DNA of 60,894 bases from Abditibacteriota bacterium (GTDB lineage: Bacteria; Armatimonadota; UBA5829), in the NCBI GenBank assembly GCA_017552965.1, contig JAFZNQ010000062.1, forward strand, positions 1-60,894, given 5' to 3'. Of the stretch, positions 7,636 to 60,894 are shown piece by piece. The translations under genes and the position numbers were made by a program. Numbering within the stretch: the first letter of the stretch is position 1; each line of letters opens with the position of its first letter. Under the pieces are notes generated by a model, which saw only the letters and a program-made list of their open reading frames with translations, had not been told where the DNA came from and made no database searches.

Positions 7636-8361
7636 ATGCAGCCGAATTACTGCGCTTTCTGCGGCAGCCGCCTGCCCGGCAACGCCGCTTTCTGCCCCGT
7701 CTGCGGCAAAGCCGTTTCCCTCCCGGCAGAAGCTGCCGGCGAAGAGCCCTGCGACGGCCCGGACATATACGCCTTTCTGAGCCCCGGCGACGAAGCATAC
7801 AGAAACAAGTTCGGCATCTGCGGCTGCACAGGCCTCCGGGCCTCCTGGAACTGGGCCGCCTTCTTTTTCGGCTGGCTGTGGTTCGGCTACAGGAAGATGT
7901 ATATCCAGGCTGTATGCGCTTTACTCGCAACCCTCTTTGTCGGTCCTCTGCCCATCATCTTTACGCTTCTGCTGGCGGGCGGTTTCAATTGGGACCATTT
8001 CCAGGTCAACAGCTTCGCGGCGACAGTGATGCTGGTCAGCCTTTTTGCCAGCCCGGCGCCCATACTTTGCGGCGTGCTGGCCAACGGGCTTTATCTCCGG
8101 GACCTCAGTGAGCGTATGTCCGTAGCCCGCAGCTTCCGGAGAGACGATCCGGACAGGAAAAAGTATATAGACGCCAATTCCGGAGTCAACACACTCTTTG
8201 TACTCATAGCCATTTTGCTGGTGCTGGTCCCGATCATGGCGATCACGTTTTACTATGCATACGGCAGTGATCCCGTGTGGCAAACGAGGTTCTTTCTTGA
8301 AAGGCACTGTCCGGAGCTGTTCCCTTACTCCGGTCCCGTAAGCGCGTATATGGGCTTCTGA
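7636..8361 (+). CDS. Zinc-ribbon/DUF2628-like membrane protein, first tandem copy
   Basis: This 241-residue protein opens with a zinc ribbon (CAFCGSRL, then CPVCGK). The SWNWAAFFFGWLWFGYRKMY segment of DUF2628-like proteins and three or four hydrophobic helices follow. ANGLYLRDLSER is shared almost exactly with the next gene. AGGAGG sits ten bases before the ATG and TATAAT (7596-7601) lies upstream. DUF2628 proteins are small membrane proteins of unknown function, and the ribbon suggests metal binding or protein contact on the cytoplasmic face. Only 18 bases separate it from its paralogue, so they are co-transcribed. Confidence 0.75.
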   Translation: MQPNYCAFCGSRLPGNAAFCPVCGKAVSLPAEAAGEEPCDGPDIYAFLSPGDEAYRNKFGICGCTGLRASWNWAAFFFGWLWFGYRKMYIQAVCALLATLFVGPLPIIFTLLLAGGFNWDHFQVNSFAATVMLVSLFASPAPILCGVLANGLYLRDLSERMSVARSFRRDDPDRKKYIDANSGVNTLFVLIAILLVLVPIMAITFYYAYGSDPVWQTRFFLERHCPELFPYSGPVSAYMGF

Positions 8362-8379
8362 CGCAGGGGAGGTTCCGAA

Positions 8380-9060
8380 ATGCAAACCTGTTCTGACTGC
8401 GGCGCTCTGCTGCCGGACAAGGCCGCCTTCTGCCCCGCCTGCGGCAAAGACCTTGGCGGCGGAGAAGGGTCCGGCGACGGTCTCGGCGTATTCTCCTTTC
8501 TGAGGCCGGAAGACAAGGTCTACCGCAACAAATTCAGGGCTTACGGCAACACAGGCCTTTGGATCTCCTGGAACTGGGCCGCTTACTTTTTCGGCTGGCT
8601 GTGGTTCGGCTTCAGGAAGATGTATCTCCACGCCGCCATGGCGCTCATCGCATATTTCTTTGCGGGGCCTCTGCCCGTTTATATGATCATACTGACGACC
8701 TCGCGCTATCCCAGGATAAACTTTTGTGCGGCGGCCCTGTTGCTGAGCCTTTTTGCCGGTCCGGCGCCGCTCCTTTTCGGCATATTGGCCAACGGGCTTT
8801 ATCTCCGGGATCTCAGGGAGCGCCTGTCCGCGGCCCGCAGCTTCCCGGACGGCGACCACAAAAAGCAGGAATATATCTGCCGCCTTGCCGGAGTTGACAG
8901 GCGGTATGTTCTCATAGGCCTTGCGTTGTGTATCGCCGGATTCCTTGCCCTGATGTATTACCTGGCCACCACCTGTGATCCCGTGGGAGTGTTCAGGCTG
9001 CGCCTGCACCGGTATCTGCCGGATATATTTTCCAGACCCCAGAACGTGTATCACTCCTGA
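8380..9060 (+). CDS. Zinc-ribbon/DUF2628-like membrane protein, second tandem copy
   Basis: This 226-residue paralogue of the preceding gene has CSDCGALL and CPACGK, then SWNWAAYFFGWLWFGFRKMY, ANGLYLRDLRERLSAARSF and a C-terminal membrane helix. Identity is highest around the membrane entry segment and the YLRDL loop, and low in the linker and C-terminus. That pattern suggests an old rather than recent duplication. GGGGAGG is near the start. Function is unknown. A clear terminator follows. Confidence 0.75.
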   Translation: MQTCSDCGALLPDKAAFCPACGKDLGGGEGSGDGLGVFSFLRPEDKVYRNKFRAYGNTGLWISWNWAAYFFGWLWFGFRKMYLHAAMALIAYFFAGPLPVYMIILTTSRYPRINFCAAALLLSLFAGPAPLLFGILANGLYLRDLRERLSAARSFPDGDHKKQEYICRLAGVDRRYVLIGLALCIAGFLALMYYLATTCDPVGVFRLRLHRYLPDIFSRPQNVYHS

Positions 9061-27529: not shown

Positions 27530-27568
27530 AAAAAGCCGGCAGACCGAATATGTCTGCCGGCATTTTTT
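27530..27568. terminator. Bidirectional terminator
   Basis: A 10-bp stem GCCGGCAGAC/GTCTGCCGGC with a seven-base loop has AAAAA on the left and TTTTTT on the right. The TAA stop of the minus-strand gene (27567-27569) lies in the T-run. Confidence 0.92.
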
Positions 27569-28034
27569 ACTTCCCGTCCCGGTCTATGACAAACAGCTCC
27601 GGCCGCATGAGCCTGATGATGCGGAGCAGATATCTCCTGACCGGCAGCAGACCGATCCAGAGTGACACCCAGAGCCTGTAGCCCGGAGAAGAGACCGGTA
27701 TTTTTTTGCCGTTTCTGACGATGCCCACGGCCACGGCCAGTATGTTGCCGTCCGTAATGCCGCGCTCGCAGGCCGCCTGTCCGTCGCCGCACATCATGTA
27801 TTCGCCGCCGCTGACGCCTACCACCCTGTGCAGTATGAACTTGCCGTTATCCCGTCTGTAAAGAGGCAGATCCCCCTTTTTCAGGGGCCCGGAGGGCTTT
27901 GTGACGGTCACCTGGTCCCGGCCGTGCCGCAGGGTAGGCGCCATGCTCCTGCCGGTGATGGTAAAGGTCACTTCCTTGCCCTGCCGGAGATACTCTTCCA
28001 TCACGGGATACAGGGTGTCCAGATCGACTGTCAT
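27567..28034 (-). CDS. S24/S26-family peptidase (SipW-like Ser-His dyad), cassette 1
   Basis: This 155-residue protein has the S26 nucleophile block TGRSMAPTL (Ser30) and a second block HRVVGV in which His69 stands where bacterial signal peptidases have Lys. That is the Ser-His arrangement of ER/SipW-type enzymes. CGDGQ corresponds to the conserved GDN box. The C-terminus is hydrophobic and basic, so it may be membrane-attached. Its ATG overlaps the upstream pqqD-like stop (ATGA). The pairing with PqqD and HPrK-like genes suggests cleavage of a modified peptide or leader, which is inferred. Confidence 0.8.
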   Translation of the reverse strand: MTVDLDTLYPVMEEYLRQGKEVTFTITGRSMAPTLRHGRDQVTVTKPSGPLKKGDLPLYRRDNGKFILHRVVGVSGGEYMMCGDGQAACERGITDGNILAVAVGIVRNGKKIPVSSPGYRLWVSLWIGLLPVRRYLLRIIRLMRPELFVIDRDGK

Positions 28035-28297
28035 GGCTCGGCAAGGCCGTTTTTGACCAGCTCCGCTGCGAAGCCGCCCACGTCCTGCCGCGCTTTTTCG
28101 ATGTCTATGGAATACTTCTCCGCCGCCAGCTGCGCCGTTTCCTCCGGCGAATTGCCGTCGGCTATCTGCTGCCACATCCAGGCGGCCGTATCGTTGAGCT
28201 TGATCACCTTGCTGAAATCGGCAGACGCGGGCCCGGTATTGATGAGCAGGTTCTCACCGGCCACCTTTTTCAGCATATATCCGTCCTTGATCCTCAT
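28031..28297 (-). CDS. PqqD family protein, cassette 1
   Basis: This 88-residue protein matches the PqqD pattern: GYMLKKVAGENLLINTG, KVIKLNDTAAWMWQQI and an ATAQ/YSIDIEKARQDVGGFAAEL helix. PqqD domains (RiPP recognition elements) bind leader peptides and present them to modifying enzymes. Both ends overlap neighbours by four bases (ATGA), so the three genes are tightly coupled. No precursor peptide was found within this cassette. Confidence 0.85.
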   Translation of the reverse strand: MRIKDGYMLKKVAGENLLINTGPASADFSKVIKLNDTAAWMWQQIADGNSPEETAQLAAEKYSIDIEKARQDVGGFAAELVKNGLAEP

Positions 28298-29166
28298 ATT
28301 ATCCCGTCCTTTGCAAGCGCTTCTCTCAGGAGAAGCGGCGTTTGTATATCCATTGTGCAGTCCAGCATATATACCGGCGTTCTTTCCAGCAGAAGGCCCA
28401 GCAGGTCATACACCTTTTCGGCAGCCTGCCTGTTGACGTGGGAAACGCACAGCTCCCGGTATATGGGCCTGAAGACCCCGGCCGGTTTCAGCCTTTCGAT
28501 CCCCGGCGCAGTCCCTCTGCGTATCAGGACCAGAGCTCCGAAGGGCACGCTCGTATTCAGATTTATGGGCACCGAGCCGCTCCAGGGAATGCCCCGCAGC
28601 GTAGCGCCGCCGTCCTCAAAGCTCAAGACGGGCCTGTCTTCGTTGATGCGCACCGTTTCTTCGGGCCACAGATCCTTCCACAGGGCAGCCTGAGTGGACT
28701 TGCCCACTCCGGGGCGGGCGCAGAAAATGATGCCCCTGCCCTTATAGCTGATGGCGGCTCCGTGAAGGGCCAGCATGCCGGCCAGCACGAGCCTGTCCGC
28801 AAAGCCCAGGAAGCTGTGACCGTATTCCATACCGGTGCGGGTCAGCAGCCTGTAGGTGTGATCCTCCAGAAAATACAGATGCATCTCCGAGGCGTCGTCG
28901 GTCAGCGACCAGGCAAACACCCTGCCGCCGCTCTTGTCACAGCCCAGCACAGTGACGAGCCCCGGCGAATAAAACACTGTCCTGGTGGGGCTTGTCTTCA
29001 CCGCAGAGCCTTCGGGAACGGGGATCTCCTTCACCAGATGGGACACACAGCAAAAGTCGGGCCTGCCGTCAAAATCCCGGCAAAACTCCTCAAAACGCTC
29101 CCGGAAGAAATCCCGGTGCAGCAAGTCCAGCGCGATATTCAGACCTGCGCTCCTCAACTTCAGCAC
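28294..29166 (-). CDS. HPr-kinase-like (HprK-related) kinase, cassette 1
   Basis: This 290-residue protein has a Walker A loop RPGVGKST (151-158) after an LHGAA stretch. An INEDRPVL acidic block, RGIPWSG and a C-terminal helical part with VFRPIYREL follow. These features match HPrK-related proteins of peptide clusters rather than full HPr kinase, which has a separate N-terminal domain. A relative in paeninodin biosynthesis phosphorylates a serine of the precursor. The start is GTG at 29166 with AGGAGG nine to ten bases upstream; the ORF extends further but without support. The promoter at 29197-29225 precedes it. Confidence 0.75.
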   Translation of the reverse strand: MLKLRSAGLNIALDLLHRDFFRERFEEFCRDFDGRPDFCCVSHLVKEIPVPEGSAVKTSPTRTVFYSPGLVTVLGCDKSGGRVFAWSLTDDASEMHLYFLEDHTYRLLTRTGMEYGHSFLGFADRLVLAGMLALHGAAISYKGRGIIFCARPGVGKSTQAALWKDLWPEETVRINEDRPVLSFEDGGATLRGIPWSGSVPINLNTSVPFGALVLIRRGTAPGIERLKPAGVFRPIYRELCVSHVNRQAAEKVYDLLGLLLERTPVYMLDCTMDIQTPLLLREALAKDGII

Positions 29167-29196
29167 TATACAAAGCCTCCTTTGCGGGCTATTTTT

Positions 29197-29225
29197 ATTA
29201 TAGCACACCCGGCCCCCCTTGGCAA
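29197..29225 (-). promoter_or_regulatory. Sigma-70 promoter of the kinase-pqqD-S26 cassette
   Basis: TTGCCA, a 17-base spacer and an extended -10 TGCTATAAT lie on the minus strand, about 30 bases before the GTG at 29166. Confidence 0.75.
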
Positions 29226-29231
29226 TCTGCC

Positions 29232-29261
29232 TTGAAAACAAGCTCCGTGTTATAGTATAAT
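29232..29261 (+). promoter_or_regulatory. Sigma-70 promoter of the ftsEX operon
   Basis: TTGAAA (29232-29237), an 18-base spacer and TATAAT (29256-29261) lie 24 bases before ATG 29286. It diverges from the cassette promoter. Confidence 0.75.
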
Positions 29262-34394: not shown

Positions 34395-35320
34395 TCAGGA
34401 TCACCTATTACGGCCAAAAGCCCTCGGGCCCCACTGTCTGCGCCATGGGCTTTTTTGACGGAGTCCACAAGGGGCACAAAAAGATCATCGGGGAGTGCCT
34501 CAGCCAGAAGAAGGACGGTCTGCAGACCGTGGCTCTGACCTTTGACAAGCACCCCCTGAAGACCGTGGCCCCCTCCAGAGCCCCCCTTCTGATCAACACC
34601 TTCCCTCAAAAGGTGGACAATCTGCTGGCCCTGGGAGTGGATACCGTGGCGGCGGTGCACTTCAACGGAGAGGTGGCCAACCTGCTGCCCGAGGACTTCA
34701 TGTGGTTCGTGCTGAAGGAACGGCTTTCGGCGGCCTCGGTGGTGGCCGGCAACAATTTCCGCTTTGGCAGAGACCGGCAGGGCAACGGCGACACCCTGAA
34801 AAAATACGGTCAGGAATACGGCATCGCCGTGAGCATCATAGCCCCCCTGCGCATCAAGGGAGGCCCCGTGTCCAGCACCCGCATCAGGGCTGCGGTCCAG
34901 TCCGGCCGCATGGAGGACGCCGCCGCCTTTCTGGGCAGCCCCTTTACCATCAGGGGCACCATTGCCACCGGCTACAGGATAGGCACCAAGCTGGGCTACC
35001 CCACCGCCAATCTGGCGGCCGCTCAGGGGCAGCTGCTGCCGGGCAACGGAGTCTATCTGGTCAAAAGCGAGATAGACGGCCGCCCCTATTTCGGCGGCTG
35101 CAACGTGGGCGTCAGGCCCACCTTCGGCATCCATGACGTCAGCATCGAAGCCCATTTTGTGGACTGGGAGGGCAATCTCTACGGCAGGGACATGTCCTTT
35201 GCCTTCCTCGGGAAGATACGGGACGAGATGGAATTCGAATCCCCCGAAGCCCTTATAGAGAGACTGAGAAAAGACCTGGAGGCGGTGAGAGCCGCCGGAG
35301 AACGGTACGCAGAAAAATGA
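34391..35320 (+). CDS. ribF: Bifunctional riboflavin kinase/FAD synthetase
   Basis: This 309-residue protein has the FAD synthetase half with FDGVHKGHKK and LTFDKHPLK. The riboflavin kinase half has GTIATGYRIGTKLGYPTANL, GVYLV and NVGVRPTF. The enzyme phosphorylates riboflavin to FMN and adenylylates FMN to FAD, which suits a segment rich in flavoprotein genes. The ATG at 34391 overlaps the upstream stop (ATGA); GTG 34382 is an alternative. Its own stop overlaps the start of the next gene by four bases. Confidence 0.95.
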   Translation: MIRITYYGQKPSGPTVCAMGFFDGVHKGHKKIIGECLSQKKDGLQTVALTFDKHPLKTVAPSRAPLLINTFPQKVDNLLALGVDTVAAVHFNGEVANLLPEDFMWFVLKERLSAASVVAGNNFRFGRDRQGNGDTLKKYGQEYGIAVSIIAPLRIKGGPVSSTRIRAAVQSGRMEDAAAFLGSPFTIRGTIATGYRIGTKLGYPTANLAAAQGQLLPGNGVYLVKSEIDGRPYFGGCNVGVRPTFGIHDVSIEAHFVDWEGNLYGRDMSFAFLGKIRDEMEFESPEALIERLRKDLEAVRAAGERYAEK

Positions 35321-37800
35321 AGCTCTTACTCATCATATTGCTCTTCGCCCTTACGGCATTGCCCTCTGCGGCAGAGCTCGCCAACCTGTGGTCCCGGGAC
35401 AACGTGGTCATAGGAGACTACAGCCCCATCCTGGACCTGGAGGGCCACAGGATAGACAACGTGTTTACGGACAAGACGGGCATGTTCTACAACAGGGACA
35501 ACCTGGTCATATTTGACCGGAACTCCGAGGACCGATACTTCATCAGCTGGCAGACCAGGGGCCCGGCGGATATAGGCTGGGTGGAGATATGCGCCAATTG
35601 CGACATACCCTCCACCAACCGCAAGGCGGGCCGTTTTGAGATATGCGGCAAAAAGGCTCCGGAGGACCCCTGGACCACTCTCTATGAGTGGACCCCTCCC
35701 GGAGGAGTGTACAAATTCCTGGACCCGGCGGAGCATATGGTGGCGGCGGGCAGGGTGAGCGCCCGGGGCTTCAGGTATTTTATGGCCCGTATAGACGGCA
35801 ACCCGGAGGAATCCCCGAACGCCGGCCCTATCCTTTACGGCCTCAGGGCCTATGAGTCGGACCCCCGCCGGCCTGCGGCGGCGGCCCGGGGCGACAAATA
35901 CGTCACCTATCTCCTCCACGATCAGGGGCCCTACGGCTATAAGGGCATGCAGGCCTTTATACGGGGCGCCAAAGAGCGGGGCAGCTATTACAGGGCCCGC
36001 TTCACCATCCTGCTGAACGGCTCCGAGCCGGAGACCATCCCGGAAAGCAAAGAGTTCTGGAAGGGGCTTTACGCCGACGGCCACGAGATCTGCTGCGAGT
36101 ATGCGTGGCAGGCAGACAAGATAGCCGCCTGGCTGGACATGGACCCCTCGGAGATCACCACCGTGGGGGGCCAGCTCTTCGCCGACTGCGACCCGGAATA
36201 TGAGGTGCTCCAGAACGAAAAGGGCATCACCGCCGAGGTCAACAGCTGCGTGGAGGGCAACTCCCTGGCGGAGTTCTGGGACATACCCCACAATTGGGAA
36301 GGAGCTCCCATCATGCCCTACTACGTGCAGTGGGACTCCGCCAACCCTCTGGCCACCGCCCGGGTGAACCGGGAGCTGGACAAGCATTCGGCGGTGCTGG
36401 AGCTCAGCTGGGGCACCCGCACTCCCTGGCACAACTACGACCGTTTTCCCATACCCCAGTGCTGGCACACGGGAGAGCCATCCAAGCCGGGACAGTGGCG
36501 GGTAGGACAGCTGGTCCGCAAGGACACTCAGGGCGGCTGGTGGAACACGGAATGCAGCCAGCTGGAGAAAAATCTTGAGGCCGGGAGGACCCCCTTCCTG
36601 TATCTCTCCGTCACCATAGAGACCTGCTGGTTCACCCCGGAGGTGCAGACCGGCGCCGTGTGGGACGAATGCCTCTCCAACAGCCTGGACCTGGTGGATA
36701 TGTTCCTGAGACGGGGCTGGAAGATCACCACCTGCCGGGATTTTGTCCGGTGGTATGGGGAAAAATGGCCCTGCCCCGAGGCTCCGGCCATGATATACCT
36801 GCTGGAGGACACTCTGGCCAACCGGGAGGACCGGGACGGACTGGTCATAGAGGGCAACGGCCATCTGGTCCACGCCGAGACCAAATATTTTCAGATCACC
36901 GATTCGGACAACAGGCTGGCTCCCGAGCTGGTCATAGCCTACGGCTGCAGGACCCCCAACCTGCTGAGAGGCGGCTACACCTTTGCGGACCCGGCCAAAT
37001 ACCCCGGGCCGGAGGTCAAGACCGGCCACTACGCCTCCACCACGGGCAACGCCATTTTCTGGAGCCCCTCCAAGCCTCTGACGGACGTCAACGGCAGCGA
37101 GTATTTCCCCTCCTACAAAGCGAAGGAATGCAGCGAAAGGGCCTTTACCTTCTATCTGGGTGACGACTACAGGGACTACATGTTCGTCCCCGGCGAATTC
37201 AGCCGGGTGCGCCGCATTTCCGACGACGAGGTCACCTGGACCAAGGAGCAGGTGAGCCCCGTCCCCGGCGCGGACGTCAGAGTAAAATACGTCCACACCA
37301 TCAAGGGGCCCAGGCACATCATCACCGTTTCGGCAGAGGGTGACGACGCCGAAGGCCTGCCCGCCCGTTTCCGTCTGTGCCCTTACTTCCATCAGGGCTG
37401 GGATATGGCGCCTTTGGACACTCCCGAAGGAGTGCCCGACCCCCGGACCGCGGGACAGGAGCGGAACGTGTTTGCCACTCTGGGCAGAGAGACCTTTGCC
37501 TGGTCCGAAGAGAACAAGGAGACCGTGACTTTCACCTTTGCTTCGGACAAGGTGAAGCTGGACGTCTTCAACCGCAACCCGGGCAAGGGCGCCGGCATCG
37601 ACGACAACCCCCTGATGAACAGGGGCTTTACCCTCACCTGCCGGGAGAAGGGACAGGTCACCTGCACGGACCCGGCAGGAGCCAACGAATACGTGGTCTG
37701 CGAGATAGATCTCGGCGCATACAAAAAGGGCAAGACCTACACTCTGGAATTTGAATACTGGAACGAGCAGGACCGCGTCCGCAAAACGGAGCGGCCTTAA
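35317..37800 (+). CDS. Large secreted protein of unknown function, possible polysaccharide-deacetylase-like core
   Basis: This 827-residue protein has a signal peptide (about 1-19). The first 180 residues look beta-rich, perhaps a discoidin-like carbohydrate-binding module. Residues 190-480 have a distant flavour of a NodB/polysaccharide-deacetylase barrel (YVTYLLHDQGPYGYKG, DGHEICCEYAWQADKIAAWL), but no clear metal-ligand set was confirmed. The C-terminal third is beta-rich. The start overlaps the ribF stop (ATGA). Function is unknown. Confidence 0.7.
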   Translation: MKLLLIILLFALTALPSAAELANLWSRDNVVIGDYSPILDLEGHRIDNVFTDKTGMFYNRDNLVIFDRNSEDRYFISWQTRGPADIGWVEICANCDIPSTNRKAGRFEICGKKAPEDPWTTLYEWTPPGGVYKFLDPAEHMVAAGRVSARGFRYFMARIDGNPEESPNAGPILYGLRAYESDPRRPAAAARGDKYVTYLLHDQGPYGYKGMQAFIRGAKERGSYYRARFTILLNGSEPETIPESKEFWKGLYADGHEICCEYAWQADKIAAWLDMDPSEITTVGGQLFADCDPEYEVLQNEKGITAEVNSCVEGNSLAEFWDIPHNWEGAPIMPYYVQWDSANPLATARVNRELDKHSAVLELSWGTRTPWHNYDRFPIPQCWHTGEPSKPGQWRVGQLVRKDTQGGWWNTECSQLEKNLEAGRTPFLYLSVTIETCWFTPEVQTGAVWDECLSNSLDLVDMFLRRGWKITTCRDFVRWYGEKWPCPEAPAMIYLLEDTLANREDRDGLVIEGNGHLVHAETKYFQITDSDNRLAPELVIAYGCRTPNLLRGGYTFADPAKYPGPEVKTGHYASTTGNAIFWSPSKPLTDVNGSEYFPSYKAKECSERAFTFYLGDDYRDYMFVPGEFSRVRRISDDEVTWTKEQVSPVPGADVRVKYVHTIKGPRHIITVSAEGDDAEGLPARFRLCPYFHQGWDMAPLDTPEGVPDPRTAGQERNVFATLGRETFAWSEENKETVTFTFASDKVKLDVFNRNPGKGAGIDDNPLMNRGFTLTCREKGQVTCTDPAGANEYVVCEIDLGAYKKGKTYTLEFEYWNEQDRVRKTERP

Positions 37801-39573: not shown

Positions 39574-40332
39574 ATGTATAGCCGGCGCGCGGGAGACACC
39601 TTGGAAAAAGCACCATACTCATTGACGGCGGAGATCGCAGGCATACCGGTGTTAGTCAGATGCCGGTTCGCCTCCAACGCGGAGCGACTGGAGGACTACC
39701 GGACGGACCGGGAGCCCCTTATCACGGCAGAGGCCCTGCCGGAGGATACGGCTCTCGCTCTCGGGAGCCAGCCTGCGGCGGCCCCCCGGCGTGAGGAAGA
39801 AGCCGAAAGTCTGGCCCTGCTCCTGTGCCTTTGCAGGAGACTGATGGACTACGGCGTCCTGCTGCTCCACGGCTCCGCCCTGACTCTGGACGGGCAGGGC
39901 TACGTGTTCACCGCCCCTTCCGGGACGGGCAAAAGCACCCACGCCCGGCTGTGGCGGGAGACCTTTGGAGACAGGGTCCGCATGCTGAACGACGACAAGC
40001 CCCTGCTCCGCATATCCCGGGAGGGAGTCGAGATATTCGGCACCCCCTGGATGGGCAAGCACGGCCTGGGCTGTCCCGGCCGGGCGCCCCTGAAGGCCAT
40101 AGTCTGCCTGAAAAGAGGCGAGGACAACACCCTGGAGCCCATGGACCCCAAAAGGGCCTTTTCGGTGCTGCATTCCCAGGCCTTCGGCATGAAGGACCCC
40201 CGGGTCATGGCCGGGTCCCTGCCCCTGAAAAAGGCCCTGGCGGAAAGGGTCCCCTTTTTCCGCCTGAATATGAACAACCTGCGGGAGGACGCGGCCCTCA
40301 GATGCCTGGAGGGGCTCAATAAATACGTATAA
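39574..40332 (+). CDS. HPr-kinase-like (HprK-related) kinase, RiPP-like cluster
   Basis: This 252-residue protein has LLLHGSALTL, Walker A APSGTGKST (114-122), LNDDKPLLRI (138-147) and GTPWMGKHG (156-164). Those are the features of HPrK-related kinases in peptide clusters. In paeninodin biosynthesis such a kinase phosphorylates a serine of the precursor; here the encoded peptide has a Ser three residues from its end. The start could be ATG 39574 or TTG 39601, the latter with GGGAG seven bases upstream. The gene is 60 bases before the small peptide gene. Confidence 0.75.
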   Translation: MYSRRAGDTLEKAPYSLTAEIAGIPVLVRCRFASNAERLEDYRTDREPLITAEALPEDTALALGSQPAAAPRREEEAESLALLLCLCRRLMDYGVLLLHGSALTLDGQGYVFTAPSGTGKSTHARLWRETFGDRVRMLNDDKPLLRISREGVEIFGTPWMGKHGLGCPGRAPLKAIVCLKRGEDNTLEPMDPKRAFSVLHSQAFGMKDPRVMAGSLPLKKALAERVPFFRLNMNNLREDAALRCLEGLNKYV

Positions 40333-40333: not shown

Positions 40334-40377
40334 ACGGAGCGGCGCCGCTCCGTGTATCGTAAAATTCGCGAATTTTA
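40334..40377. repeat. Two consecutive perfect palindromes upstream of the peptide gene
   Basis: ACGGAGCGGC is followed directly by its reverse complement (40334-40353). Six bases later lies an AT-rich 18-base palindrome (40360-40377) centred on TTCGCGAA. They fill most of the gap between the kinase and the ribosome-binding site AAGAGGAGGAG (40377-40387). Roles as an operator, processing site or mRNA-stabilising hairpin are all possible. Confidence 0.75.
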
Positions 40378-40393
40378 AGAGGAGGAGTTTTTC

Positions 40394-40534
40394 ATGGAAA
40401 AGTATGAAGAGCCGATCATGGAAGTAGAAGAAGTTGCGGAAGACGTTCAGACGGTCTTTCCGGGAGGCCACGGCGGCAACGACGACCAGTCTGCCTGCTA
40501 TGACGCTTCTGCCGTCATGGACAGCAACGGCTAA
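40394..40534 (+). CDS. Candidate RiPP precursor peptide (46 residues)
   Basis: This short ORF has an exceptional Shine-Dalgarno (AAGAGGAGGAG, seven bases before the ATG). It encodes an acidic leader (MEKYEEPIMEVEEVAEDVQT), then VFPGGHGGNDDQSACY and a tail DASAVMDSNG. The split between acidic leader and Gly-rich, Cys/Tyr/Ser-containing core, with a GG that could mark cleavage, is typical of ribosomal peptide precursors. The opening MEKYEEPIMEV resembles short peptides seen beside radical SAM enzymes in anaerobes. It lies between the kinase and radical SAM genes. It is too short for usual gene-calling cutoffs. Translation and modification are inferred. Confidence 0.7.
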   Translation: MEKYEEPIMEVEEVAEDVQTVFPGGHGGNDDQSACYDASAVMDSNG

Positions 40535-40557: not shown

Positions 40558-40588
40558 TCGCTGCGTATGACGCCGTCATACGCAGCGA
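40558..40588. repeat. 15-bp perfect inverted repeat between peptide and radical SAM genes
   Basis: TCGCTGCGTATGACG (40558-40572) and its exact complement (40574-40588) flank one base. As RNA this makes a strong hairpin with no T-run. It could protect the upstream peptide mRNA or partly block read-through, raising peptide-to-enzyme ratio. ATG 40567 lies inside the left arm. Confidence 0.85.
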
Positions 40589-40599
40589 ACCGTTTAGTG

Positions 40600-41967
40600 A
40601 TGCGCCAAATATGGAAGCAGGACCCACAGGTCCTCTCGGTACTGCGGGCCGCGCCTCTGCGCCCCGGCAGGACCTACAGATGGTCCCAATACGCCCTTTC
40701 CTTTGAGGAAGGGGGCGCCGGGTACCTCTGCAGCTTTCTCACCCGGGAGTGCCTGGCCTGCGGCCTTGAGCCGGGAGACCGGCGGTTTGCAGCCGAAGAG
40801 ATAGCCGGGAACAAGGACCTCAGTTATCTGGCGGAGAACCGGTTTCTGGTGCCGGAGGACGCGGACGAGTACAAGACCTACGAGGGTCTCCTGCGGATAC
40901 TGAGGGCCCTGGACAGGCCCGAGGGGCTCACCGGCTGCACCATCCTCCCCACCCTGAAGTGCAACGCCCGCTGCGTCTACTGCTACGAAGCGGGGCGGGA
41001 GGAGACGTCCATGTCCCCGGACACCGCGGACCATACTGCAGCCTACATCCTGCAACACGCCCGGCGAAGCGCCCCGGTCAGGCTCCACTGGTTCGGGGGA
41101 GAGCCCCTGCTGCGGCCGGATATCATAGACCGCATCTGCCAAAGGCTCCGGGAGGAAGGCCTGGAATATCACTCCGCCATGACCTCCAACGGCTCTCTCA
41201 TCACGGAGGAGCTGGCGGACAGGCTGGTCCGGGACTGGCGCCTGGAGAGCATCCAGATAGCCCTGGACGGCCCGGAGGAGGAATATATCCGCCGCAAGGC
41301 TTACCCCCGCTACCGGGACTACTATCGCGCCGTGCCCCGCAGCGCGGCAGCGCTGGCGGCCCGGGGAGTCAGAGTGACCCTGAGGATCAATACGGACAGG
41401 GGGAACGCGGCCTCCATACCGGAGTTTCTCCGGGAGCTGTCGGACCTGATACCGGACAAGACAGGGGTGAAGATCTATTTTTGCGTGCTCAACGAGGAGC
41501 GGGCCCGGCCGGAAGCCCGGGAGGTCTGGGACAGGATCTTCGAGGCAGACAGCCTCATAGAACGCTATGGCTTCCTGCCGGACTACAACCGCAGGCTCCA
41601 TCGGTTCAAGACGTTCAACTGTATGGCGGACAACACGGGCCGCAGTGTGCTCATCGCTCCGGACGGCCTGCTCTATTCCTGCGAGATGTGCCTCCCCGGC
41701 ACCTCCTTCGGCAACGTGTGGGAGGGGGTCACCGACCGGGCCCTGTTTGACCGCCTGTCCCGGCCGGAGCCGGCGCCGGACAAATGCCGCAGCTGTCCCC
41801 TGCTGCCGGAGTGCACCCCCTTTACCGGGTGCCCCGTCAGGGACTACGACTGTTTCGGACTGACAAAGAGGCATCTTATCCGGAGCCTGAAGCTCAGCGT
41901 GAGGAGCATATCGGACGCCCGGGACACGGCAGAGGACAGGCCCTGCGGCTCCCCCTCCGATGAATGA
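40600..41967 (+). CDS. Radical SAM/SPASM peptide-modifying enzyme
   Basis: This 455-residue enzyme has the radical SAM CxxxCxxC motif CNARCVYC (Cys121/125/128 from ATG 40600). HWFGGEPLL and MTSNGSLI follow. A C-terminal SPASM-like region has many cysteines (SCEMC, FGNVWEG, then CRSCPLLPECTPFTGC and DC). SPASM enzymes modify ribosomal peptides, for example with thioether or C-C crosslinks, or mature enzymes. The substrate is probably the peptide just upstream. ATG 40567 is in frame but sits in the hairpin; 40600 is preferred although no strong RBS precedes it. Confidence 0.85.
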   Translation: MRQIWKQDPQVLSVLRAAPLRPGRTYRWSQYALSFEEGGAGYLCSFLTRECLACGLEPGDRRFAAEEIAGNKDLSYLAENRFLVPEDADEYKTYEGLLRILRALDRPEGLTGCTILPTLKCNARCVYCYEAGREETSMSPDTADHTAAYILQHARRSAPVRLHWFGGEPLLRPDIIDRICQRLREEGLEYHSAMTSNGSLITEELADRLVRDWRLESIQIALDGPEEEYIRRKAYPRYRDYYRAVPRSAAALAARGVRVTLRINTDRGNAASIPEFLRELSDLIPDKTGVKIYFCVLNEERARPEAREVWDRIFEADSLIERYGFLPDYNRRLHRFKTFNCMADNTGRSVLIAPDGLLYSCEMCLPGTSFGNVWEGVTDRALFDRLSRPEPAPDKCRSCPLLPECTPFTGCPVRDYDCFGLTKRHLIRSLKLSVRSISDARDTAEDRPCGSPSDE

Positions 41968-41988
41968 GGACAATAAAAGGTGACGCTC

Positions 41989-42882
41989 ATGACTGACCAC
42001 AGAGAACCAAGGCCCGTCAGGATAGCCTATTGCGGCTGCGACCTCTTCGCCGGCTGCCTCAGGCTCCTGCTGGACAGCGGCAGGGCGGAGGTCCTGCATA
42101 TCTTTTGCGAAATAAAAGGCTGCGAGGAAGTGCAGGCCCTGGCCCTGGAGCGGCGCATACCCATTTCATTTCGGCCCATAAGCGAAAGGGATATGGAGGA
42201 GCTGTTTGACCGCCGGGGCTGCGACTACGTGGTCTCCGCCTGCTATCGGTGGAAGATACCCATAGGGGACCGCAGGGGAGTCAACCTGCACCCCACCCTG
42301 CTGCCCATGGGCAGAGGCCCCTGGCCCTTCCCCCATATCATTCTGGAGGGCCACCGGGACAGCGGGGTCACTCTCCACCGGCTCACGGACCGGTTTGACG
42401 CCGGGGACATACTGCTGCAGCAGTCTTTTCCCCTGGACCCCGGGGAGACCCATCAGACTCTGGTCCTGAAAAGCGTTATCACGGCCCCGGAGCTGCTCCG
42501 GGAATGGCTGGAGGACCCGGAGACCCTGTGGCAGAATGCCCGGCCTCAGGGGGAAGGCGTTTACCTGAAACGGCTGCCTCAGGAAAGCGCCCGGATAAAC
42601 GTCCATGACACTCCCGAGGAGGCCCGGCTGAAAATACGGGCCTTCGGCTACGGAGATATCATAGTCCCCGGCACAGGGGAAAGATACGCCTCCGCTCAGG
42701 CCTTTTGCCAGCGTGACGACCGGGCCCCGGCGGAAGGGACAGTGCTCTGCAAGAGCCGCCGGGATCTGGCTATAGCCATCAGGGGCGGAGTGCTGTATAT
42801 CGCCAATGCGCAGGTCCGCCGCCGCAGAAGCCTGGGGGCAAGGATAACAGGCAGGCTCAAAAGGCTTTTCGGCGCCAGGTGA
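41989..42882 (+). CDS. Formyltransferase-family protein in RiPP-like cluster
   Basis: This 297-residue protein has the N10-formyl-THF formyltransferase core: VNLHPTLLPMGRGPWP (Asn/His catalytic residues) and HRLTDRFDAGDIL (Asp). The C-terminal EGTVLCKSRRDLAIAI and GVLYIANAQV resemble the OB-like Fmt C-terminal domain. It differs from housekeeping Fmt because no def gene is near and it lies inside a peptide cluster. It may formylate the peptide or an attached sugar. AAGG precedes ATG 41989. Function is inferred from fold and context. Confidence 0.75.
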   Translation: MTDHREPRPVRIAYCGCDLFAGCLRLLLDSGRAEVLHIFCEIKGCEEVQALALERRIPISFRPISERDMEELFDRRGCDYVVSACYRWKIPIGDRRGVNLHPTLLPMGRGPWPFPHIILEGHRDSGVTLHRLTDRFDAGDILLQQSFPLDPGETHQTLVLKSVITAPELLREWLEDPETLWQNARPQGEGVYLKRLPQESARINVHDTPEEARLKIRAFGYGDIIVPGTGERYASAQAFCQRDDRAPAEGTVLCKSRRDLAIAIRGGVLYIANAQVRRRRSLGARITGRLKRLFGAR

Positions 42883-42933
42883 CCGATCATGCTCCCGCAG
42901 CAAGCGGCGGGACCACAGCGACAAGGAACACCC

Positions 42934-43194
42934 ATGAAACTCAAACAGCAATTTCTGACTCAGGAAATAGAAGACACCACCTTTCTGGTGCCCGTAGGCC
43001 GAGGCAGCTTCGGCGGCCTCATCCGCAGCAACAGGACTGCCGCCTTTATAGCAAAGTGCCTCACCGAGGACACCACCCGGGACGGGATCGTGGACGCCAT
43101 GTGCCGCAAATATGACGCCCCCCGGGAGGTCATAGCAGACGGAGTGGACAGGATCCTGGATATACTGCGCTCCATAGACGCTCTGGAAGAATGA
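42934..43194 (+). CDS. PqqD family protein, RiPP-like cluster
   Basis: This 86-residue protein has a PqqD-like pattern: DTTFLVPVGRG, SNRTAAFIAKCL and DGIVDAMCRKYDAPREVIADGVDRILDIL. It should bind the peptide leader and serve as RiPP recognition element. AAGGAA precedes the ATG; the frame extends to 42889 without support. The stop overlaps the S26 gene (ATGA), exactly as in cassette 1. Confidence 0.75.
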   Translation: MKLKQQFLTQEIEDTTFLVPVGRGSFGGLIRSNRTAAFIAKCLTEDTTRDGIVDAMCRKYDAPREVIADGVDRILDILRSIDALEE

Positions 43195-43652
43195 GCTCCC
43201 TTGAAGAGCTGCTCCGGCGGGACGGGGTGCTGGTTTATAAGACCAGGGGGGCCAGCATGGCTCCCATGCTCCGCGAGGACAGGGACCTGGTGATCATAGC
43301 CCCTCCTAAGGAGCCCCCACGGAAAGGGGACGTGATCCTGTTCAGGCAGGGCTCCCTTTACGTGCTGCACCGGATAGTCGGCAGACAGGACGGCTGTTTT
43401 ATCACCCGGGGAGACAACAATTACACCCCGGAGACAGCCCCGGAGGAAGCGGTGGTGGGCGTTCTCACCGGCTTCAAGCGCAAGGGGCGTGAATACGGCG
43501 TCCGGCACCCGGGCTACAGGCTCTACGCCTTTTTGTGGACCTTCTTCTTTCCTCTGAGGCGCAGCGCGTTCCGGGCCGGCAGAAGGCTCCGGCGCATCCT
43601 GCAACGCTCCGGGCTCCTGCCCCTGGCAAAAAAGCTTCTGCGCAAAAAATAA
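43191..43652 (+). CDS. S24/S26-family peptidase (Ser-His dyad), RiPP-like cluster
   Basis: This 153-residue protein has RGASMAPML (Ser22), LHRIVG (His60) and TRGDNN (74-76), the S26 boxes with His in place of Lys as in SipW/ER-type enzymes. The basic C-terminus has one hydrophobic stretch (YAFLWTFFFPL), which suggests membrane attachment. It is a paralogue of the peptidase at 27567 and is likewise fused by overlap to a PqqD gene. A peptide-processing role is inferred. Confidence 0.8.
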   Translation: MSSLEELLRRDGVLVYKTRGASMAPMLREDRDLVIIAPPKEPPRKGDVILFRQGSLYVLHRIVGRQDGCFITRGDNNYTPETAPEEAVVGVLTGFKRKGREYGVRHPGYRLYAFLWTFFFPLRRSAFRAGRRLRRILQRSGLLPLAKKLLRKK

Positions 43653-43687
43653 CAGCGGATATCGTCGGATATCCGCTGCGTTTTTTT
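43653..43687. terminator. Bidirectional terminator at the end of the RiPP-like cluster
   Basis: CAGCGGATAT/ATATCCGCTG with a six-base loop is followed by seven T on the plus strand. The minus strand reads into TTATTTTTTG, serving the convergent pseudopilin gene. Confidence 0.9.
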
Positions 43688-60429: not shown

Positions 60430-60894
60430 GCGCCGGGAGCGCGGGAGCGCATGAAGCTTTTTCATACAGCGCAGGTGACCCCGGCCGGCAATATACCGCC
60501 GGGAAAAGGCGCCTTGAGCGGGCGCGGGAGCGCCCGCTCAGGGCTTAATAAAACAAAGGGTGTTGCCGCCCGGCAACACCCACCCACCGCCGGGATGGCA
60601 CATAGTCTTTCTGCCCTGCAAAGCCTGTGGCTTTGCAGGAGGAAAACCATGCCGCCCGATCGAAGAAAAACGCAAGCCGACACCACACCCCGAAAGAACC
60701 GCGAGCCGCGGCCACGGACCAAGCCGGGGTGGGAGGGGCGTTATCCGGGGTCCCCGAAAAATCGCAGATTTTTTGGGGTATAAAGCCCCTGCTCAAGCCG
60801 AAGGGCAAGCGTCGCCGTCAGGCGCAAGGCGGAAAAGGCAGAAATGCAGCTTCTTTTCTGCCCCGTCGCAGAGCGCAGACCTGAGGCGCAGACG
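60430..60894. other. Hairpin-rich region with no certain gene
   Basis: Four further stem-loops occur: 60515-60540 (perfect 11 bp), 60558-60581 (perfect 11 bp), 60615-60639 (perfect 11 bp) and 60752-60778 (12 bp with one G-T). No protein family was recognised in any frame. Confidence 0.7.
60649..60783 (+). CDS. Possible 44-residue basic peptide
   Basis: A short ORF (MPPDRRKTQ start) has a strong AGGAGGAAAA ribosome-binding site. That site is partly paired in the hairpin at 60615-60639, so translation could be controlled. The peptide is rich in Arg, Pro and Lys, and its end runs through the hairpin at 60752-60778. It may equally be non-coding DNA. Confidence 0.25.
   Translation: MPPDRRKTQADTTPRKNREPRPRTKPGWEGRYPGSPKNRRFFGV

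Follow-up and report, generated by a model that had tools for sequence, protein, structure and literature searches.

The window, i.e. the whole 60,894-nucleotide stretch of Abditibacteriota DNA analysed here, carries on its + strand an operon with short gaps or overlaps between the genes, encoding in order an HprK-like kinase, a short peptide, a radical SAM/SPASM protein, a formyltransferase-like protein, a PqqD-type RRE and a SipW-like peptidase, followed by a terminator. The peptide gene (40394..40534, + strand) starts with the ATG at 40394, 61 bp from the kinase gene, ends with a TAA stop at 40534 and encodes 46 aa (MEKYEEPIMEVEEVAEDVQTVFPGGHGGNDDQSACYDASAVMDSNG), of which approximately residues 1-20 form the leader and residues 21-46 the core. 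Residues 1-20 are acidic, GG pairs are positioned at 24-25 and 27-28, the tail holds one Cys (35), one Tyr (36) and three Ser (33, 39, 44), and the core is devoid of Lys; thus the acidic leader-like half, the GG and the Gly/Asp-rich tail behind a Shine-Dalgarno sequence, as given in a preliminary description of this DNA, are confirmed. The codon-position GC of the ORF (0.66/0.34/0.64) is coding-like. The Shine-Dalgarno sequence AAGAGGAGGAG (40377..40387, + strand) places AGGAGG 8 nt before the ATG. While the very strong ribosome-binding site stressed in the preliminary description is present, it is not diagnostic in itself: the window contains five instances of AGGAGG followed after 4-10 nt by ATG and an ORF of at least 35 codons, compared to 2.4 on average (maximum 8) in 40 first-order shuffles of the window, and a Shine-Dalgarno sequence with a short ORF is, taken alone, near chance here. 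A further such ORF, at 60649, lacks the leader motif.

Upstream of the peptide gene, the HprK-like kinase gene (39574..40332, + strand) encodes the P-loop APSGTGKST and an NDDKPLL motif, with weak matches to ScmC and HprK-related kinase A below the cut-offs. Downstream, the radical SAM/SPASM peptide maturase (40567..41967, + strand) was assigned by Pfam and NCBIfam, its best scores being to RiPP maturase families in NCBIfam. Within the family of the source genome nothing matched it at 1e-20, and its relatives within the phylum are only 25-36% identical. The cysteines of its CxxxCxxC motif (C121, C125, C128) and of the SPASM domain (C341, C361, C396, C399, C405, C411, C418) are conserved in the alignment, numbered from an ATG at 40600, which is the likelier start since 40567 falls within a hairpin; residues 1-107 are not resolved in the AlphaFold model. 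The formyltransferase-like protein (41980..42882, + strand; PF00551), a relative of Fmt and ArnA, carries the N-x-H and D catalytic residues. It is followed by the discrete PqqD-type RRE (42889..43194, + strand; PF05402) and the SipW/Sec11-type peptidase (43191..43652, + strand; PF00717 and sigpep_I_arch), in whose sequence the candidate residues Ser22, His60 and Asp75 are in place. A strong intrinsic terminator (43653..43678, + strand) closes the operon, which contains no transporter. Scans of the genome_contigs collection gave no relatives of the radical SAM protein or the kinase, and neither the scan of viral contigs nor a tblastn search of plasmids yielded any relatives.

Two perfect palindromes lie in tandem upstream of the Shine-Dalgarno sequence (40334-40377), one of 20 bp between the kinase and peptide genes (40334..40353) and one of 18 bp, TAAAATTCGCGAATTTTA, abutting the Shine-Dalgarno sequence (40360..40377), and might be a regulator site or an RNA element. 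Furthermore, a strong hairpin of approximately 14 bp (40558..40588, + strand) stands between the peptide and radical SAM genes. The arrangement would be compatible with high expression of the precursor and lower expression of the enzymes, the hairpin possibly acting as a step-down.

The leader contains YEEPIM at residues 4-9 (Y4-E-E-P7-I-M9). We counted it as a [Y/W]xxPx[L/V/I/A/F/Y] leader, although the Met at the last position, a conservative exchange, is not among the published residues. In different RiPP classes, lasso and PqqD-type RREs bind recognition sequences of the W/Y/LxxP class (PMC12710340), and a discrete RRE of this kind is encoded in the same operon: besides the PF05402 match, its AlphaFold model (pLDDT 87) has a lasso-B1-like predicted fold, with the lasso RRE TbiB1 in complex with a leader peptide, another lasso B1 protein with leader and PqqD as the best PDB matches. 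The YxxP leader, the discrete RRE with a lasso B1 fold and the HprK-like kinase are likewise found in paeninodin clusters, and the peptide could accordingly be read as the precursor of a lasso peptide of the paeninodin kind. We consider this reading highly improbable, for the operon encodes no asparagine-synthetase-like macrolactam synthetase and PF13471 (B2) is absent from the whole genome; without the B2 protease, a lasso fold is unlikely. Similarly, the GG in the peptide would fit a bacteriocin or signalling peptide of the double-glycine type, in which a C39 transporter-peptidase cleaves behind the GG. Since the genome, at 97% completeness, gave no match to Peptidase_C39 (PF03412), and the operon encodes a SipW-like peptidase in its stead, cleavage at the GG is improbable, and with no ABC transporter in the operon either, little credence can be given to a double-glycine peptide.

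A search of the own genome with the peptide gave a weak match at a second site, which proved to be six small ORFs arrayed in tandem (L003 4108-4963; C39:44107-44963 of the own genome), located between leuS and a phosphoglycerate-mutase-like gene. The six ORFs are 30-34 aa each and have no maturation enzymes alongside. Each of them starts with [M/V]YEEPxIE and each ends in a different acidic tail, and one such ORF is present in the same leuS/mutase interval of the congener G009. Leader identity among the seven copies is 77% (pN/pS 0.21), whereas that of the tails is approximately 36% by a generous alignment. Using a profile of the array-type leaders, built from these seven only and with the window ORF excluded, we screened the 1397 six-frame segments of the window, and the window ORF was the single match (E 0.0013); it is raised above chance because the leader profile singles out only this ORF in the window. 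No direct orthologue of the ORF, and no orthologue of the window radical SAM protein, was found in the same-family genomes (14 genomes for the ORF), so the comparison of leader and tail is confined to the leader family. Thus the conserved leader and variable tail expected among homologous loci in the preliminary description hold for the paralogous family sharing the leader of the window ORF, but direct orthologues of the ORF are missing. YEEP peptides and HprK-like kinases occur together only in G000 and G009, i.e. two of the 15 family genomes, and a third congener, G008, gave no match to the peptide, the kinase or PqqD.

These data also bear on the reading of the ORF as a chance frame with a fortuitous Shine-Dalgarno sequence, or as a leader/attenuator ORF through which the radical SAM gene is regulated. 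The near-chance count of Shine-Dalgarno sequences with short ORFs and the hairpins flanking the ORF would agree with it; however, the leader of the ORF is related to that of the array, the leader family is under purifying selection and the YxxP motif is accompanied by an RRE of the cognate type in the operon, and we regard a chance or attenuator ORF as very unlikely. On the grounds of context and family, the gene for the 46-residue peptide is thus very probably genuine. Moreover, its reading as a precursor gene, lying where one would be expected, is supported by the operon content, the YxxP leader, the lasso-B1-like RRE fold and the related leader family.

A second, related kinase/RRE/peptidase set is encoded on the - strand of the window (27567-29241) and has no precursor alongside. 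It comprises an HprK-like kinase (28294..29241), a PqqD-type RRE (28031..28297) and an SpI-like peptidase (27567..28175), the true start of which is probably further in. G009 carries an orthologous kinase/RRE/peptidase set (L077). The second set may serve the orphan array in trans. In another region of G009 (L118 1792-3206), a formyltransferase-like gene lies directly before an SpI-like gene, with no radical SAM, RRE, kinase or peptide gene. The products are 46% (formyltransferase-like protein) and 60% (SpI-like peptidase) identical to those of the window, and the pair is located between ribF and a homologue of the 827-aa gene at 35317-37800 of the window. As the ribF and 827-aa genes are neighbours in the window as well, L118 corresponds to the window neighbourhood with fewer genes, which links the formyltransferase to the peptidase. 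In addition, G009 encodes at L119 3688-6587 a 525-aa protein with a CHSA-type Cys repeat tail (CHDACHSACHSAC...) and, directly after it, a radical SAM protein whose N-terminus resembles PqqD; the two are likely another peptide-maturation pair.

Within the wider phylum, HprK-like kinase matches were found in 37 of 291 genomes. Many of these kinase loci carry PqqD, radical SAM, S26-like and NTP-transferase genes, which are adjoined by small ORFs whose leaders contain [Y/W]xxP, frequently as [Y/W]xxPx(I/V)xx(V)xLxxEExVLxxC. A motif derived from these ORFs was matched twelve times within 3 kb of the kinase and not once farther out over approximately equal length, a count for which the motif was chosen after these ORFs had been seen. 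The published [Y/W]xxPx[LVIAF] motif is also commoner near kinase and PqqD loci (16.8 vs 6.2 per 100 kb, p 0.007). With a profile of the distant phylum [Y/W]xxP leaders, neither the window ORF nor the array scored above noise, and the likeness of the window ORF to these peptides is at the level of the motif only (YxxP and hydrophobic/acidic spacing). One distant cluster (L086) encodes two paralogous ORFs with YEAP leaders (8151-8545), one of them with a GQGGGGC core, and downstream of these PqqD, radical SAM, HprK, an S24/S26-GNAT acetyltransferase fusion and NTP_transf_5 (PF14907).

The published system closest to the window operon is that of the linear polyphosphorylated peptides (LPP; Popov et al. 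2026, PMC13381572), which is reported to be restricted to Bacillota and in which HprK/RRE/SpI peptide processing was shown experimentally (PMC13381572). The two have in common a YxxP leader, a discrete PqqD-type RRE, an HprK-like kinase and a SipW-like leader peptidase with Ser/His/Asp, and the LPP core set of HprK-like kinase, RRE, SpI-like peptidase and precursor is complete in the window operon. LPP also combines a conserved leader with a variable C-terminus, as does the window leader family. While LPP has an uncharacterised NTP transferase and an MsbA-like exporter, the window operon encodes neither. Conversely, LPP has neither the radical SAM protein nor the formyltransferase of the window operon, and neither term appears in the text of the LPP paper (PMC13381572). 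Furthermore, the LPP leader motif is YxxPxVLxHQxIxFETxxS with Ser at core +3 (PMC13381572), of which the window leader matches only YxxP and the Thr at Y+16, and Pro stands in place of this Ser if the peptide is cut after Thr20. The window system would in part work like LPP, but we did not file it under that name, as two core genes are absent and the leader motif that defines LPP is matched only in part.

Other known systems share parts of the set. Paeninodin-type lasso peptide clusters share the [Y/W]xxP leader, the discrete RRE and the HprK-like kinase, but differ by the macrolactam synthetase and B2 protein that the window operon and genome, respectively, lack. The SynChlorMet system (SCM in NCBIfam: ScmC, the PqqD-like ScmD and the radical SAM proteins ScmE/F) also combines HprK-like, PqqD and radical SAM/SPASM proteins, yet the window proteins remain far below its cut-offs (22.8 of 125 bits for ScmC, 45 of 400 for ScmE), and the window operon has a single radical SAM gene and in addition the peptidase and formyltransferase genes. 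Maturases of ranthipeptides and sactipeptides (TIGR04463, Clo7bot, geopeptide, PapB) have the same radical SAM/SPASM architecture and act on peptides with Cys in the core; the window protein reaches a best score of 109 against a cut-off of 525, and its operon differs in the one core Cys and the separate RRE and kinase. We call the window cluster an LPP-like RiPP cluster variant with a radical SAM protein and a formyltransferase.

With the gene, the operon, the leader motif, the RRE fold and a related leader family with variable tails in place, we are confident that 40394-40534 encodes a RiPP precursor modified with the help of the RRE, radical SAM protein, kinase, peptidase and formyltransferase of the operon. 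By homology to LPP, lasso and radical-SAM RiPP systems, from which each chemical step and the order of the steps are taken, the YEEPIM segment of the leader would dock on the operon RRE (42889-43194), which would then present the peptide to the radical SAM/SPASM enzyme and the HprK-like kinase. The radical SAM enzyme would modify the core, most likely by forming a thioether at Cys35 or by crosslinking it to a nearby residue through a C-C bond; the kinase would phosphorylate Ser 33, 39 or 44. By analogy with the T-1 site of LPP, the SipW-like peptidase would cut off the leader near Thr20, which lies 16 residues after the motif Tyr, compared to 15 in LPP. Finally, the newly exposed N-terminus, the sole amine in the Lys-free core, may receive a cap from the formyltransferase-like enzyme. 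A fuller scheme, in which the RRE guides crosslinking by the radical SAM enzyme, Ser is phosphorylated, an SpI-type peptidase removes the leader and a dedicated N-formyltransferase caps the N-terminus, with the second set serving the six-precursor array in trans, is conceivable but less likely than not.

The precursor might instead be used only by an LPP-like phosphopeptide pathway, with the radical SAM protein and the formyltransferase acting elsewhere, e.g. on a sugar or cofactor. The kinase, RRE and SpI-like peptidase make up the core of LPP, G009 keeps the formyltransferase/SpI pair with no radical SAM gene beside it, and relatives with the Fmt fold include sugar N-formyltransferases. On the other hand, other genomes repeatedly have radical SAM genes next to RRE, kinase, S26 and [Y/W]xxP ORFs, and the highest scores of the window radical SAM protein are to RiPP maturase families, which makes a pathway confined to phosphorylation rather unlikely.

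With a precursor matured by the whole operon, the peptide pathways of HprK-kinase, RRE and signal peptidase described of late would be extended and joined to radical SAM chemistry and a formyltransferase. The combination of a radical SAM protein and a formyltransferase with kinase, RRE and signal peptidase was met in no paper found, a weak negative given that most subscription journals were outside the coverage of the search. Moreover, the orphan array, with its shared leader and divergent acidic tails, represents a natural substrate library, and the three congeners, which differ in gene content, provide a ready test of the pairing between enzymes and precursors.
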